Made by a program: the position numbers and the translations under genes. The notes under the pieces are model-generated. The model was not told the origin of the DNA, searched no databases, and saw only the letters and a program-made list of their open reading frames with translations. DNA of 37,393 bases, from assembly GCA_030605095.1 (NCBI GenBank), contig JAUWBJ010000006.1, forward strand, positions 1 to 37,393, in the 5' to 3' direction. This DNA is from Candidatus Omnitrophota bacterium (lineage in GTDB: Bacteria; Omnitrophota; Gorgyraeia; JABMRN01; RBG-13-46-9). This document shows, piece after piece, positions 23,243 through 29,772 of the stretch (positions within the stretch are counted from its first letter, which is position 1; each line of letters starts with the position of its first letter).

Positions 23243-23317
23243 GGCCCCATCGTCTAGCCTGGCCCAGGACATCAGATTCTCATTCTGAAAACTGGGGTTC
23301 GAATCCCCATGGGGCTG
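23243..23317 (+). tRNA. tRNA-Glu(CTC); integration target of the downstream element
   Basis: GGCCCCA/TGGGGCT acceptor, TCAGA-TTCTCAT-TCTGA anticodon arm, GGGG-TTCGAAT-CCCC T arm; 3' half duplicated at 29427-29475. Confidence 0.95.
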
Positions 23318-23381
23318 CTATTAACGTAACTATGCGTAACTACTATAGTTATATAGAGGTTACGCCTTTTTTGTTTCTAAA
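23269..23381 (+). repeat. attL: tRNA-Glu 3' end plus terminator hairpin
   Basis: acatcagattctcattctgaaaactggggttcgaatccccatggggctgct... also found at 29427. Confidence 0.92.
23334..23372 (+). terminator. Hairpin-T-run terminator after tRNA-Glu
   Basis: GCGTAAC (23334-23340)/GTTACGC (23359-23365) followed by CTTTTTTG; copy at 29492-29530. Confidence 0.7.
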
Positions 23382-23465: not shown

Positions 23466-23918
23466 ATGAAGGGATATCAGTTTTTAGAAAACGATTTTTT
23501 CGATCTCTGCAAAACCCGGGAAATCGGCCGGATTCCACAATTGCTTTATATTTATTTGCGCGGATTATATTGCCGCTTTCAAAAGCCCATTTTCACCTGG
23601 TATGACAAAAAGATTCTCAAACATCTATCCATCTCCCAAAGCACCCTCTCAAGATCGCGACAGTATCTACAAAAGCAGGGTATGCTTAAGTTTAAAAGCG
23701 GAAATGGTATAGTTCCTACAGAATACACAATGTTAGGTACAATCCTCCTACCTGTCGTCAAAAAGCCGATACAGTGTCGTCAAAGCTCTATATACAGGTA
23801 TCGTCAAAATGACGACACCTTATTATCTATTAAAGAAAGAGAAAAGAAAAGAATGGGGATTTTTAAAGGGACGACGGTTATGGAGAAGGTTCTGCTAAAA
23901 CAGAAAGGTATTTTGTGA
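23466..23918 (+). CDS. Small winged-helix/HTH-like protein of the element (possible replication or regulatory protein)
   Basis: DKKILKHLSISQSTLSRSRQYLQKQGMLKFKSGNGIVPTEYTML resembles a wHTH; first gene inside attL. Confidence 0.55.
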   Translation: MKGYQFLENDFFDLCKTREIGRIPQLLYIYLRGLYCRFQKPIFTWYDKKILKHLSISQSTLSRSRQYLQKQGMLKFKSGNGIVPTEYTMLGTILLPVVKKPIQCRQSSIYRYRQNDDTLLSIKEREKKRMGIFKGTTVMEKVLLKQKGIL

Positions 23919-24002
23919 TCCAATTGAAAATCTGTGGGATAAAACACTAAAAGAATCCAATAATATTTTTACAAATACTATTTTATAAGGTATACTATGC
24001 CT

Positions 24003-24596
24003 ATGGGGGATAAAGAAATTAGAACAGCTCTGAAGCATTTGTTAAAAAAGCAATACCAGGATGTGCCCAACACTTTCATTCTTGACGAGCTTGGAATTGG
24101 TCATGGACAAGTTCGAGTAGATCTTGCTGTTGTTAACGGCGCACTTCATGGATATGAGCTAAAAAGCGATAAAGACACCCTGTATCGTTTGCCTGAGCAA
24201 GCAAAAGCATATAATTTAGTTTTTGATCGGATGACGCTTATAGCAGGGAAGAAACATGTTTATGAAGCGATTAAAATTATCCCAGATTGGTGGGGAATCA
24301 AAATTGTTGAGAGTTGTTCTGAGAATGAAATAAAGTTCCATAATATAAGAAGAGCTAGTAACAACCCCCACCTTGACGCCGTATCTATTCTTGAGTTGCT
24401 TTGGAAGGAAGAGGCGTTGGGTTTTTTGGAAGAGCTAGATAGCGCTAAAGGCTTTCGGTCTAAAAAACGAAGTGAAATATATAATCGAATAGCAAAAGTT
24501 GGGAGCTTAAAAAAGATAAGGAATGAGGTTAGAGACCAGCTTCGTTTACGCCCAAATTGGAGAGCTGAGTTGCAACCAATGTTAAATGATGGTTGA
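24003..24596 (+). CDS. sce7726-family-like protein, PD-(D/E)xK nuclease-like fold predicted (ORF track start 23997)
   Basis: DKEIRTALKHLL...FILDELGIGHGQVRVDLAVVNGALHGYELKSDKDTLYRLPEQAKAYNLVFDRMTLIAGKKH matches the remembered sce7726 pattern; D-x(n)-ExK (VDLAVV...YELKSD). Confidence 0.8.
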   Translation: MGDKEIRTALKHLLKKQYQDVPNTFILDELGIGHGQVRVDLAVVNGALHGYELKSDKDTLYRLPEQAKAYNLVFDRMTLIAGKKHVYEAIKIIPDWWGIKIVESCSENEIKFHNIRRASNNPHLDAVSILELLWKEEALGFLEELDSAKGFRSKKRSEIYNRIAKVGSLKKIRNEVRDQLRLRPNWRAELQPMLNDG

Positions 24597-25611
24597 TACC
24601 TGCTCTAAGCCAGCTTGCAGGGTTACCAGGATGTTTAACCTCTTCTTCTTGTTCTGCTTTTTGTGCCATATCATAAATATAAGCATCTCCTGCACTGAAA
24701 TTCTTGCCCATAAAGTCGGGTCTCTCAATCAAAAGCTGCGCATGAGCGGGATATTGTGCATGACCAGCACCACCCTTTTTATTAAGACCTTCCCCTCTAA
24801 AAAGCAACCAGTCAACTTCACTAGTATACCGAAGGCTTGCGCTTGGGCGTGCTCCTGGGACAGGTTCAGTAAAGAAAGGGTGTAGAATTGTGTAATCCCC
24901 GAATGCAGGTAGTCGAGGTAAAGTAGCACTTACCCGATTTTTCCACATTAACCAGTCTGATCTTGATATACGATGTATATCAACAGAAAAATCAGATAGA
25001 TATTTTGGAAATACACCGCTAAGAGTAGTAAAAGAACGCCACAGATGCAAATGCGGAAGCGATTTACAAAGCGAAGAGAATGTCGGATGTGGTTTTCTGT
25101 GGGGGATTAACTTATAATCAATAATTAAATCTATTTGCTTTGGAGCAAGGCTAAAAAAACCACATAGAGCCTCAAGAGACTTTTTCAACTTGCTTAATTC
25201 ACACGATGCGATATCTACTCGAATACAAAGACCCCTTCGATGTTTTTTTATAAGCTTTTTTAAAAGTAGATTATATCTATTATTGCAACTAAGTGAACTA
25301 ACGGGAATTAAAGCTAGATTAGCTTTGGATATTTTTGCAAAAATAGTTTCTAATACATGTTCTTTACGCTCAATATTAAAAATTAAATGTGGATCAAGGA
25401 AGAATGGATGTGATGGCCAGCTTTTTTTCAAATTAGTTATCATTAAATCAGCTGCAGTGTTTATTTCGTTGTTATGTTTCTTGTCGAAATGATGGGGCGT
25501 CGGTTCGAATAGAGGCGTTATTAACTTGCAATGCTTTCTTTCTAACTCTCTTATTGCTAGCCACTCTGCTTGCTTCCAACGTAGCACAGGGACGTAGTGT
25601 TTATGGGACAT
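24529..25611 (-). CDS. Beta family protein (PF14350-like; related to sce7725-type proteins)
   Basis: HYVPVLRWKQAEWLAIRELERKHCKLITPLFEPTP...ISRSDWLMWKNR...PAFGDYTILHP, a pattern typical of the family; overlaps the sce7726-like 3' end convergently. Confidence 0.8.
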   Translation of the reverse strand: MSHKHYVPVLRWKQAEWLAIRELERKHCKLITPLFEPTPHHFDKKHNNEINTAADLMITNLKKSWPSHPFFLDPHLIFNIERKEHVLETIFAKISKANLALIPVSSLSCNNRYNLLLKKLIKKHRRGLCIRVDIASCELSKLKKSLEALCGFFSLAPKQIDLIIDYKLIPHRKPHPTFSSLCKSLPHLHLWRSFTTLSGVFPKYLSDFSVDIHRISRSDWLMWKNRVSATLPRLPAFGDYTILHPFFTEPVPGARPSASLRYTSEVDWLLFRGEGLNKKGGAGHAQYPAHAQLLIERPDFMGKNFSAGDAYIYDMAQKAEQEEEVKHPGNPASWLRAGINHHLTLVATQLSNLGVNEAGL

Positions 25612-25617
25612 TATTTT

Positions 25618-26802
25618 TTACCTCCAGCTAACATTTTTAAAACATTCGCGCACTTCGTTAGTACCTATCAGGTTATTTAAAATCCTATATGATTTGAAAT
25701 GATGGCGCATTTTCCCTGCGACTATAGCAACATGAATATTTAATTTTTTTGCCAAACTCTTAGCTGCTGCTGGAGATTTTAATCGAGATGCTGGACTTTT
25801 TATCCATACATCCTTAGGCACCAATATTTCTCTGGCTAATTGGTCAGCTTCAGTTTCAATCGGATCGTCAGAGACATCAGAATCTAGGTCATCGAAAATC
25901 ATATCTTCTTTACCTTCTAAATGGAGCGATATGTGTGCTAATTCATGCATTAGGCAAAACCAGAAACTATCAAGACGGTCATAACGCAGAGTTAAGCCTA
26001 TAATAGGACCATTTGAGGACATGATAGCAACACCATCTAAATAAGTTTTAGGTAAATGAGGCTCAACAATCAACAAAATACCATTTTTTTTCAAAAATTC
26101 ATAAGCCAAATACGGAGAATTTTCATGCGTACTTAGCTGTACTAAAGTATGCATGAATTTTTTAGTAATTGTGCCAGCCTTATAGCGTGTTTTATTTGCT
26201 ATGGCATTAGCTTGTGTCAGTATACGGGCGTTCCATGCCATTAGGGAATATTTATCCATTGTGCGAGCTGACCTAACATTATTTGTCATTCGATATAAGG
26301 CAGATATTCCCCACGAAGTTTCCACTGGTTTTAAGTAATTACGTATAGTTAATTCCGACGTAGCTTTTTTAACCTCTATCCATCCTCGCCTTATCATTTC
26401 TTTGAGGGGAAATCTGTTCCAGTCAAATTCACCGTTCACAGGGCGTGGGGCTACCAAGGATTCTAAAGGAATGCCAAAGGCAGCATTTAGAGCTCTGATC
26501 ATTGAAAGAGTTAAAGGTCTCTTTCCCGAAAGAACCTCCGAAACTTTACTTCTACTCCCAATATAAGGAATTAAATCTCTATGGGTTAAGCCTTGTTGAT
26601 CCATCCTGAATTTGATTGCGTCTATTGGGTTAGGCGGGCCAAAAGAAAACGATTTTTTTTCATAATCAGCAATAAGAAGCATTAAAAGATCAAGCTTGTG
26701 AGCTAGGGTAGTACCTTTTCTTGGATTTCGATCAAGCAACTCCTCTACGCGCTTCAAAGCGTTTTCATAGTCACCGCGTGTCTTAATAATTTTTACGTCC
26801 AT
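25618..26802 (-). CDS. HigA-type XRE antitoxin fused to ImmA/IrrE metallopeptidase
   Basis: N-terminal HigA-like HTH (IKFRMDQQGLTHRDLIPYIGSRSKVSEVLSGKRPLTLSMIRALNAAFGIPLESL) and C-terminal HExxH (LMHELAHISLHLEG). Confidence 0.88.
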   Translation of the reverse strand: MDVKIIKTRGDYENALKRVEELLDRNPRKGTTLAHKLDLLMLLIADYEKKSFSFGPPNPIDAIKFRMDQQGLTHRDLIPYIGSRSKVSEVLSGKRPLTLSMIRALNAAFGIPLESLVAPRPVNGEFDWNRFPLKEMIRRGWIEVKKATSELTIRNYLKPVETSWGISALYRMTNNVRSARTMDKYSLMAWNARILTQANAIANKTRYKAGTITKKFMHTLVQLSTHENSPYLAYEFLKKNGILLIVEPHLPKTYLDGVAIMSSNGPIIGLTLRYDRLDSFWFCLMHELAHISLHLEGKEDMIFDDLDSDVSDDPIETEADQLAREILVPKDVWIKSPASRLKSPAAAKSLAKKLNIHVAIVAGKMRHHFKSYRILNNLIGTNEVRECFKNVSWR

Positions 26803-26811
26803 TGCTACCTC

Positions 26812-27096
26812 CTAATACTGCCACTTTGAATATTCAGCGTGGGTACCAATCCTTGTAACTAATACGGCTTTTTTTTGGTAGTAGACTTTTGTCTCAAGTC
26901 TATATCTGTTCCCCTTGATATTAAAAACAACTATTGCACTACCCAGATTACTCGCAGAACCGTATTTATCCCGTATCTTGTGGAAATTAGTCCAATTCGC
27001 ATCTTCAACTTCTTTAATCCATGAATCTATTGCTCCGCAAGAATCAGCATGGATGGATTTAAAGCTATGTAAACGACCAATACCGAATATTTTCAT
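26812..27096 (-). CDS. HigB-family (RelE-superfamily) toxin
   Basis: DANWTNFHKIRDKYGSASNLGSAIVVFNIKGNRYRLETKVYYQKKAVLVTRIGTHAEYSKW is characteristic of HigB_toxin proteins; immediately upstream of the HigA-like gene. Confidence 0.88.
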   Translation of the reverse strand: MKIFGIGRLHSFKSIHADSCGAIDSWIKEVEDANWTNFHKIRDKYGSASNLGSAIVVFNIKGNRYRLETKVYYQKKAVLVTRIGTHAEYSKWQY

Positions 27097-27139
27097 CGAT
27101 AAGTCCCCATAAGGTAAATAGCAAAAAATGTGTCTTTAT

Positions 27140-27190
27140 CATTGTTCCCCCTTAGGGAACAATGATACCATATTGGGAACAAATTGTCAA
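27140..27190. promoter_or_regulatory. Operator region upstream of the toxin operon (GGGAACAAT half-sites)
   Basis: Perfect 10-bp inverted repeat CATTGTTCCC-CCTTA-GGGAACAATG (27140-27164) plus third half-site GGGAACAA (27175-27182). Confidence 0.7.
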
Positions 27191-27215
27191 GGGGAAAAAT
27201 AAAATTTCCGAAAAA

Positions 27216-27247
27216 GACTTGACAATTGTCAAGTCATAGTGTATACT
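27216..27247 (+). promoter_or_regulatory. Sigma70-type promoter overlapping a 20-bp perfect palindrome
   Basis: GACTTGACAATTGTCAAGTC (27216-27235) contains the -35 TTGACA (27219-27224); 17-bp spacer; -10 TATACT (27242-27247). Confidence 0.8.
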
Positions 27248-27256
27248 TACTATTGA

Positions 27257-27436
27257 ATGACGGAAAGGCAGATCCTGGCGAAGATCGAAGACTACATGAA
27301 AAAACATAACCTCCGTCAGTGGGAATTCGCGAAAAAGATCGGAGTTCCCGATGGCACGCTAAATAGGTGGCTCAGAGAAAGATCGAATATCTCAAAGGCC
27401 TACCTAAAGATTTTAAAGAAAGAAGGGGTTATATAA
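27257..27436 (+). CDS. 59-aa XRE/Cro-like HTH repressor (not in the ORF track)
   Basis: MTERQILAKIEDYMKKHNLRQWEFAKKIGVPDGTLNRWLRERSNISKAYLKILKKEGVI*, read directly from sequence; preceded by promoter/palindrome. Confidence 0.8.
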   Translation: MTERQILAKIEDYMKKHNLRQWEFAKKIGVPDGTLNRWLRERSNISKAYLKILKKEGVI

Positions 27437-27454
27437 TATTTTTTTAAGCATAAT

Positions 27455-27470
27455 CTTGACAATTGTCAAG
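27455..27470. promoter_or_regulatory. Second copy of repressor palindrome CTTGACAATTGTCAAG
   Basis: Identical 16-bp core to 27218-27233; upstream of the small TM ORF-xis-int cluster. Confidence 0.75.
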
Positions 27471-27490
27471 CCAACTGGTTAGAGGGAATC

Positions 27491-27637
27491 ATGGATTTAA
27501 GAAAAGTAATCATATTTTCAGTATTAATAAGCGCAAATGTGGTTGTTTGGTACGAGGTGTTTGGTATAGGGTTTTTGTGTGGGGTAGCAATAATAATTGC
27601 TTGTATAGTTTTGTTTCCAAAGAGGAGGGGAAAATGA
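27491..27637 (+). CDS. 48-aa putative single/double-TM membrane peptide
   Basis: MDLRKVIIFSVLISANVVVWYEVFGIGFLCGVAIIIACIVLFPKRRGK*; ATGA overlap with the next gene. Confidence 0.6.
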   Translation: MDLRKVIIFSVLISANVVVWYEVFGIGFLCGVAIIIACIVLFPKRRGK

Positions 27638-27828
27638 GGTTATTAAATCTTGAGCAAGTGGCGGAGGTTTTAAATAAGGCAGAGAAGACAGTGTATGCCT
27701 ATCTCGAAACCGGCATGTTGGATTGTGGTTTTAAGATAGGGCATGAATGGAGAGTAGACGAAAGAGACCTGTGGGGCTGGATAGAAAGGCAAAAACAAGC
27801 TAATGGCGTGGTTAAAGCGGCGAGATAA
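27634..27828 (+). CDS. Excisionase-like helix-turn-helix (MerR/xis-type) protein
   Basis: MRLLNLEQVAEVLNKAEKTVYAYLETGMLDCGFKIGHEWRVDERDLWGWIERQ; start at 27634 (SD GGAGGGG) rather than ORF-track 27463. Confidence 0.85.
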   Translation: MRLLNLEQVAEVLNKAEKTVYAYLETGMLDCGFKIGHEWRVDERDLWGWIERQKQANGVVKAAR

Positions 27829-28843
27829 CGGATATTACTATATCTATTGGTACGAGGGGCAGACCGGAGGCGGTAAGCCTAAGAAATGCATGAAGTCCCT
27901 AAAGACCAAGAATAGGAAAAGGGCAGAGCTTGTCTATAAGACATATGATGAGAAGATCTATTTTAGAAAACAAGGCCTACTTACTATGAATAAGATCGAA
28001 ATAGAGGCTTTTAAGCCACGCCTGGAATCATATCTGAACGCCCACTTTGATAATCAACATACCAGGAGAAAATATCTGGGACACTATAAGCTATTCGCTG
28101 ATTTCATGAGTAAAAAATATAACTATGTAAAATATATACATGAGGTAAAAGACACATATTTTGTAGAATTTAAAATCTGTGAGCAAGAAAATAAGAAAAG
28201 TCCACACTCGATAAATGGGGAAGTGCGCTCTCTTCACAAAATCTTCAAGATAGCGAAAGAGCTTAATCACATAAATGAAAATCCAGCAGACAACATGTCT
28301 ATGATCAGAGTTAAAAAGCCGCGGGTAGAAGCGTATAGCCAGGACGAGATACGCCTAATGTTTAAATATTCTAAGAAAGATCCCATGCTCGATACAATGA
28401 TTCTTTTATTGCTTCAGACCGGCTCGAGAAAAGAAGAAGTAAGCAACTTCAAATGGAATGACTTCAATCGCGATAATAACACTCTAAAAGTATCCCGGAA
28501 GGATGATTGGCATCCTAAAAGAGATAAGGAGAGAATTCTGAGGTTATCAGATAAACTAACGCGCATGCTAAGCAAGCTAAAGCGAGAAAGTGACTACATC
28601 TTCACTCAAAAAGCTGGCAGAAATAAAGGCAAAAAGTTCTCTGGGAGCCAACTATATAGGTATGTCATTTATAATTTCTTAAAGAAGCTAGCCATAAAAG
28701 GACATCTGCATAAATTTAGAGACACCTACGCAAGCTATTCTATCGCCTGTGGAGTAGATATAGCAAAGGTTCAGCATAGGCTAGGGCACGAGAGTTTAAA
28801 AGAGACAGATAGATATACTCTATGGCTATTAATGAGCCAATAG
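27803..28843 (+). CDS. int: Tyrosine recombinase / integrase
   Basis: Arg motif LLLQTGSRKEEVSNFKWND, HKFRDTYAS, HRLGHESLKETDRYT (R..HxxR..H..Y); 26-bp overlap with xis-like gene; located near attR. Confidence 0.93.
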   Translation: MAWLKRRDNGYYYIYWYEGQTGGGKPKKCMKSLKTKNRKRAELVYKTYDEKIYFRKQGLLTMNKIEIEAFKPRLESYLNAHFDNQHTRRKYLGHYKLFADFMSKKYNYVKYIHEVKDTYFVEFKICEQENKKSPHSINGEVRSLHKIFKIAKELNHINENPADNMSMIRVKKPRVEAYSQDEIRLMFKYSKKDPMLDTMILLLLQTGSRKEEVSNFKWNDFNRDNNTLKVSRKDDWHPKRDKERILRLSDKLTRMLSKLKRESDYIFTQKAGRNKGKKFSGSQLYRYVIYNFLKKLAIKGHLHKFRDTYASYSIACGVDIAKVQHRLGHESLKETDRYTLWLLMSQ

Positions 28844-29301: not shown

Positions 29302-29426
29302 TCCTCCCATGTATTTACATGTATTTAAGAGAAGTATACCTGAAGTGAGAAGAATAAACAAGCGTATAGGGAAAAGAGAGTTGCAAAATGGGTAGCAAAA
29401 TGATAAAATCATGTGTAGAAGCGACT

Positions 29427-29539
29427 ACATCAGATTCTCATTCTGAAAACTGGGGTTCGAATCCCCATGGGGCTGCTTTTAACATAACTAGGCGTAACTA
29501 CTATAGTTATATAGAGGTTACGCCTCTTTTGTTTCTAAA
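29427..29539 (+). repeat. attR: 3' fragment of tRNA-Glu plus terminator hairpin
   Basis: 51 bp identical to 23269-23319, then 62 bp with 4 mismatches. Confidence 0.92.
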
Positions 29540-29543
29540 AAAT

Positions 29544-29724
29544 CTAGGGACGCCCCTAATGCTGAACTTAGGCCTGTCCCCTCTTTAAGATTACACCTAT
29601 AAAAAACAGAAAATCTCAAGCTAAAAGTGTGTATGTGCTCGGGGAATTATATGTGTGGATTCGGGGACAGGCCTAAGTTCAGTCCAGGGACAGGCCTAAG
29701 TTCAGGCTCAGGCACGTCCCTAGA
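29544..29724. repeat. Inverted-repeat-bounded ~180-bp element (REP/MITE-like)
   Basis: CTAGGGACG...CTGAACTTAGGCCTGTCCC (29544-29580) is complementary to GGGACAGGCCTAAGTTCAG...CGTCCCTAG (29687-29724); extra direct copy of GGGGACAGGCCTAAGTTCAG at 29663-29682. Confidence 0.75.
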
Positions 29725-29772
29725 TTTAACTAGATTTACTAGACTAGATTTACTAGATTTATATCTTTTTGA

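Follow-up and report, generated by a model that had tools for sequence, protein, structure and literature searches.

The PD-lambda-2 system was discovered by functional selection in Escherichia coli and acts by abortive infection (Vassallo et al. 2022, PMC9519451). Its HTH-peptidase protein (B) is toxic when alone and is neutralized by a HigB-like protein (A), and a third protein, Beta (C), is dispensable for neutralization and required for defence against λvir (PMC9519451). The satellite phage P4 encodes a further system, gop-beta-cII, by which E. coli is protected from λ and P1 (Rousset et al. 2022, PMC9122126). In P4, gop and beta lie on one strand and cII is convergent with them, and the cII protein is assigned to the "sce7726 family" in its NCBI annotation. 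Neither of the two reports (PMC9122126, PMC9519451) explains what cII does in gop-beta-cII or what Beta does in PD-lambda-2, and the main text of PMC9519451 mentions neither sce7726 nor cII.

Here, we describe a four-gene locus from an uncultured Omnitrophota bacterium, encoded on a tiny mobile element within a window of 37,393 nucleotides, the whole stretch of DNA that was analysed. We consider that the locus is probably an abortive-infection defence cassette of the PD-lambda-2 type, extended by a fourth gene and borne as cargo on a small integrative element in tRNA-Glu. By homology, it can be regarded as a defence system, and the best reading is that it represents a four-gene variant of PD-λ-2 whose Beta-cII core is common to gop-β-cII.

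Three of the genes form a minus-strand operon. A HigB/RelE-like toxin of 94 aa (26812-27096; PF09907 HigB_toxin, 1e-24) is followed after 9 bp by a 394-aa fusion of a HigA-type HTH domain to an ImmA/IrrE (M78) metallopeptidase (25618-26802) and, after a further 6 bp, by a 360-aa Beta protein (24529-25611; PF14350 Beta_protein, 2e-63). In the fusion protein, Pfam recognizes the peptidase (PF06114 Peptidase_M78, 4e-08), matches the HTH domain slightly below its cut-off (PF01381 HTH_3, 1.8e-4), and the HELAH zinc motif is intact, with H286, E287 and H290 invariant in the alignment. The fourth gene lies on the plus strand with its own start signals (23997-24596, with an additional in-frame ATG at 24003) and encodes a 199-aa predicted PD-(D/E)xK nuclease of the sce7726/P4-cII family (NCBIfam NF033832 sce7726, 7e-50). 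It is convergent with the Beta gene, and the two 3' ends overlap by 68 bp. An initial annotation of this DNA had proposed a defence or toxin-antitoxin module of these four genes, in which an sce7726 gene ending inside the Beta gene was tied to HigBA with a metallopeptidase-bearing antitoxin; the open reading frame list agrees with its genes, coordinates and intergenic gaps, and the association itself is found as described.

The defence assignment is borne out by PADLOC, in which HigB matches PD-Lambda-2_A (PDLC03981, 2e-34), the HTH-ImmA/IrrE fusion PD-Lambda-2_B (PDLC03982, 1e-144, residues 1-390) and Beta PD-Lambda-2_C (PDLC03983, 2e-44); sce7726 matches the "cll" profile (5e-28). The three genes also occur in the order of PD-lambda-2 on one strand, and the HigB-HTH/ImmA-Beta operon of the window can be identified from its sequence as PD-lambda-2. 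The operon matches this system both in PADLOC and in PMC9519451, and therefore the main novelty claim of the initial annotation, that no described system had this composition, cannot stand for three of the genes; an undescribed three-gene operon is ruled out by the PADLOC assignment. Beta and cII are, in turn, two of the three components of gop-beta-cII. Only for the combination of all four genes did the searchable literature yield no described counterpart.

Unlike PD-lambda-2, the window locus possesses the additional convergent sce7726/cII gene, and its Beta and B proteins fall outside the classical clade in our trees. Classical PD-lambda-2 loci in E. coli C and E. coli PS2C are without sce7726, the gene facing Beta being a SIR2-family gene in the former and a hypothetical gene in the latter. 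The operon of E. coli C (NZ_CP029371) resembles that of the window in adjoining a tyrosine integrase. A related locus in Buttiauxella has a convergent gene of similar appearance to that in E. coli C. The E. coli system functions without sce7726, and the core can therefore dispense with the nuclease.

The likeness to gop-beta-cII lies in the convergence of Beta with a cII/sce7726-family gene, in the toxin gene upstream on the Beta strand, and in the carriage of the system by a small integrative element. The window differs from P4 in that Gop, which has no Pfam family match, is absent and HigB and HTH-ImmA/IrrE precede Beta; in P4, Beta and cII are separated by a 27-bp gap rather than overlapping, and the P4 Beta belongs to a different lineage in the Beta tree. 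With gop-beta convergent with cII in P4 and the same layout in the window, the window thus joins Beta-cII to a PD-λ-2 toxin module. Assignment of sce7726 to the P4 cII family, made by sequence comparison, is accompanied by conservation of residues E31, D42, E54, K56, D60 and Q68, which are invariant in all 22 sce7726 proteins compared, from P4 cII to Omnitrophota. The catalytic pattern E...D...ExK...Q of PD-(D/E)xK enzymes is present in the window protein. An AlphaFold2 model of this protein (pLDDT 89.5) has as its best Foldseek match in the PDB 3dnx (E 5e-5, probability 1.00), which we take to be a restriction-endonuclease-like, PD-(D/E)xK protein; PDB sequence searches with Beta and with sce7726 gave nothing useful. 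The protein that the initial annotation named as nuclease-like thus keeps the expected catalytic residues and has a matching predicted fold, and we infer that sce7726 has nuclease activity.

That sce7726 and Beta form recurrent pairs had been suggested in the initial annotation, and gene-neighbourhood searches among plasmids, GTDB loci and Pseudomonadota agree. All 16 plasmid Betas overlap an sce7726-family match. Among 349 Pseudomonadota genomes, six of ten Betas have a convergent sce7726 gene, and the eight sce7726 genes above the cut-off comprise six facing Beta and two that are co-directional with sce7725. A GTDB search with the B alignment yielded 80 loci, 12 of them with a complete Beta. 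Half of the complete HigB-ImmA-Beta loci (6/12), from Acidobacteriaceae, Omnitrophota, Parcubacteria, Falkowbacteria, Komeilibacteria and Saccharibacteria, have a convergent sce7726 gene; in the other six, a whole-genome search that detected the gene in all six carriers found no sce7726 anywhere in the genome. At 65 of the 80 related HigB-HTH/ImmA loci there was no Beta match, some of the contigs being too short to tell. In the phylum of the window, a survey of 392 Omnitrophota genomes found strong B matches in five and sce7726 above the cut-off in five; the four genomes common to both sets all have the same architecture as the window. Loci in two genomes, G153 and G170, are 99.97% identical over 3,017 bp, a stretch that takes in B, Beta and sce7726, and were counted as one event; the two genomes are assigned to different families, and the identity reflects either an error in binning or a transfer that took place very recently. 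We rejected a further genome, G265, as a contig-truncated four-gene locus because its B protein groups among Beta-less loci. Single-protein scans of IMG/VR returned one sce7726 locus and no Beta.

The distance matrices of Beta and sce7726 are correlated across 22 pairs (Mantel r=0.753, p<=2e-4, none of 5000 permutations reaching this value), and the overlap phase is identical in 15 of these pairs. Overlaps range from 0 to 135 bp, the P4 pair being the only one with a gap. Sequence comparison thus points to Beta and sce7726 as a co-inherited convergent pair, taken here as one inherited pair in the main lineage. In the sce7725/sce7726 pair (NF033831/NF033832), sce7726 is likewise a recurrent partner, but the genes are co-directional and sce7725 takes the place of Beta. 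Kinship of Beta and sce7725 is only hinted at by a weak hhalign match (61 columns, p=0.0096), and we make no claim of homology between the two.

In the Beta tree, the window protein belongs to a nine-row clade (96/97) of Betas from HigB-B loci, eight of which have sce7726. Betas of classical PD-λ-2 loci are grouped in a separate clade (100/99), and the P4 Beta clusters with ImmA-Beta lineages. The same two Beta-bearing clades appear in the B tree amid many loci without a Beta match. A single HigB-B-Beta clade was not rejected (AU p=0.249), and we accordingly withhold the claim of two independent HigB-B-Beta origins. The modules found upstream of Beta are HigB-HTH/ImmA, Gop, DUF6932-XRE/ImmA, DUF4917 with a B-like protein, or ImmA alone, and at some loci there is no recognised toxin gene. 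A system on Agrobacterium plasmids shares with the window its last three genes, their layout and the 3' overlap, and differs in that DUF6932 (PADLOC candidate PDC-M63A) replaces HigB. At two loci (L145 and L004), DUF6932 (PDC-M63A-like) stands in the position of HigB before XRE/ImmA-Beta with a convergent sce7726 gene. DUF6932 is a candidate for a third toxin joined to this core; in one native-host test, no activity of PDC-M63AB was seen (PMC12409345). In another genome, a DUF4917 protein (PADLOC candidate PDC-S21) is followed by a B-like HTH-ImmA protein and Beta at a locus where sce7726 is absent, and a separate convergent Beta/sce7726 pair is encoded elsewhere in the same genome.

The AlphaFold2 model of the window Beta (pLDDT 87.1) has an alpha/beta-barrel-like fold. 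The PDB structures that Foldseek matched to it were all barrel enzymes of a generic kind (E about 1e-3), and given such weak and generic matches we claim no enzymatic function. Across 32 Betas, D165 and D239 show no variation, and D73, E16, Y6, P33 and H342 are conserved at 97%. The model places D73, R131, D165 and D239 at the termini of predicted strands or close to them, an arrangement suggestive of a binding or catalytic site.

The integrative element that carries the locus is 6.2 kb in size and sits in a plus-strand tRNA-Glu (CTC) gene, its integration target (23243-23318; ARAGORN, Rfam). The 113-bp left att repeat (23269-23381, plus strand), consisting of the 3' half of the tRNA and a terminator-like hairpin, is 96% identical to the right att repeat (29427-29539, plus strand), at which Rfam reports a partial tRNA-Glu match (29415-29467). 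An imperfect 41-bp inverted repeat and a 19-bp tandem duplication are located just beyond the right att repeat, at 29540-29727. The element modules, all on the plus strand, are a conserved att-adjacent protein, probably with an HTH domain (23466-23918; 80-84% identical in the G263 and G221 sister elements, with no family match in Pfam or NCBIfam), an excisionase-like HTH_17 protein (27463-27828; PF12728, 8e-08; conserved part from about 27635), and a tyrosine integrase (27803-28843; PF00589, 2e-19). Two further Omnitrophota genomes encode integrases with 82-85% identity to that of the window (85% in G761), and over 64 aa the excisionase-like protein shares 97% identity with the protein preceding the G761 integrase.

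The four genes occupy a cargo slot (23888-27256) between blocks common to the sister element in G263, a genome of the same family as the window. This sister element is also located at tRNA-Glu, and its flanking modules are 80-82% identical. Its homology to the window ends at 23887 and resumes at 27257, at the edges of the slot, and therefore the four genes are exchanged as a single cargo. The genes scanned in the G263 cargo include an ECF sigma factor and a Ser/Thr kinase. PADLOC kinase matches there reflect a generic Ser/Thr kinase domain and do not establish a defence system. G761 has the integrase in common with the window and has a Fic-domain gene upstream, and G387, in which tRNA-Glu and the downstream genes of the window are present and the integrase is absent, is consistent with an empty site. 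In G221, only the homologue of the att-proximal protein is kept in the examined region. The loci of G263, G761 and G221 belong to an Omnitrophota tRNA-Glu element family with a conserved integrase and exchangeable cargo.

Upstream of HigB there is a candidate autoregulated promoter on the minus strand (27142-27190), identified by consensus matches and an inferred operator. The promoter candidate, TTGACA-17-TATCAT (27190-27162), overlaps the repeat TTGTTCCC-N5-GGGAACAA at 27142-27162, and an additional half site, GGGAACAA, is present at 27175-27182; these repeats plausibly constitute a HigA-type operator. The adjoining region (27218-27470, plus strand) is probably a lysogeny-type switch of the element. 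It contains two perfect 16-bp palindromes, CTTGACAATTGTCAAG, at 27218-27233 and 27455-27470 (0.11 expected in the window), between which lies a small Cro-like HTH ORF (about 27258-27437). One palindrome covers the -35 of the promoter of this ORF and the other precedes the excisionase gene.

By homology with PD-lambda-2, HigB and the HTH-peptidase protein would restrain each other and repress their own promoter, and infection would, via Beta, free a toxic activity that stops the infected cell. With less certainty, sce7726 may act as a nucleic-acid-cutting arm working with Beta, so that Beta would serve as a sensor or relay between the nuclease and a replaceable toxin module (HigB-ImmA in the window, Gop in P4). 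The fixed convergent overlap may help to balance the Beta and sce7726 transcripts, and because Beta-sce7726 is also found without a recognised toxin gene, the pair may act alone. The initial annotation had proposed a different wiring, in which cleavage by ImmA/IrrE derepresses the toxin together with Beta and the nuclease. This is doubtful: sce7726 is encoded outside the HigB operon on the opposite strand, and therefore a derepressed HigB promoter would bring no increase in sce7726 and could oppose it by antisense transcription. A simple toxin scheme also fits poorly with the published toxicity upon single over-expression, which resides in the HTH-peptidase protein and is relieved by HigB (PMC9519451).

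Alternatively, the window could hold two independent systems, a complete PD-lambda-2 and an unrelated nuclease gene that faces it by chance. The separate strand and start signals of sce7726 would fit such an arrangement, as would the lack of this gene at the E. coli loci and at five other classical PD-lambda-2 loci; the recurrence of the convergent overlap across phyla, the correlated distances and shared overlap phase of the pair, and exchange of the genes as a single cargo block all argue against it, and we consider it quite improbable. It is similarly improbable that the locus serves to stabilize the small element as an addiction module and is not a defence against phages. A HigBA-type toxin-antitoxin pair does lie within the 6.2-kb element, and most related HigB-HTH/ImmA loci, some on short contigs, have no Beta match. 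However, the nearest characterised systems, PD-lambda-2 and gop-beta-cII, protect against phages, and sister elements hold different cargo in the slot, such as the sigma factor and kinase of G263, so the element does not depend on the HigBA pair.

The remaining alternative reverses the roles of the components: sce7726 would be the main effector and Beta its inhibitor, with HigB-ImmA confined to regulation, sensing damage and cleaving either Beta or the repressor. Many loci encode Beta-sce7726 without HigB, and a metallopeptidase gene often precedes Beta even where HigB is missing, which speaks for this arrangement. Nevertheless, we find it unlikely, for PD-lambda-2, which is without sce7726, needs Beta for defence rather than being opposed by it.

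The HigB-HTH/ImmA-Beta operon itself was known; the comparison shows that two separately catalogued defence systems are linked by a conserved, interlocked Beta-cII pair, and that the four-gene combination recurs in distant bacteria. There is perhaps an even chance that PD-lambda-2 and gop-beta-cII both belong, as variants, to a single modular defence superfamily, in which Beta-cII/sce7726 forms a conserved sensing-and-cutting core joined to interchangeable toxin modules (HigB-HTH/ImmA, Gop, DUF6932-XRE/ImmA or ImmA alone), classical PD-lambda-2 has lost or never had the nuclease, and the window locus is a revealing hybrid. The hybrid locus offers a direct test case for an effect of sce7726 on phage range or activation, and the presence of PD-lambda-2 in E. 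coli C matters in that this strain is a common phage host. These observations add Omnitrophota and several CPR lineages to the range of this predicted defence, and they present it as the swappable cargo of a minimal integrative element.
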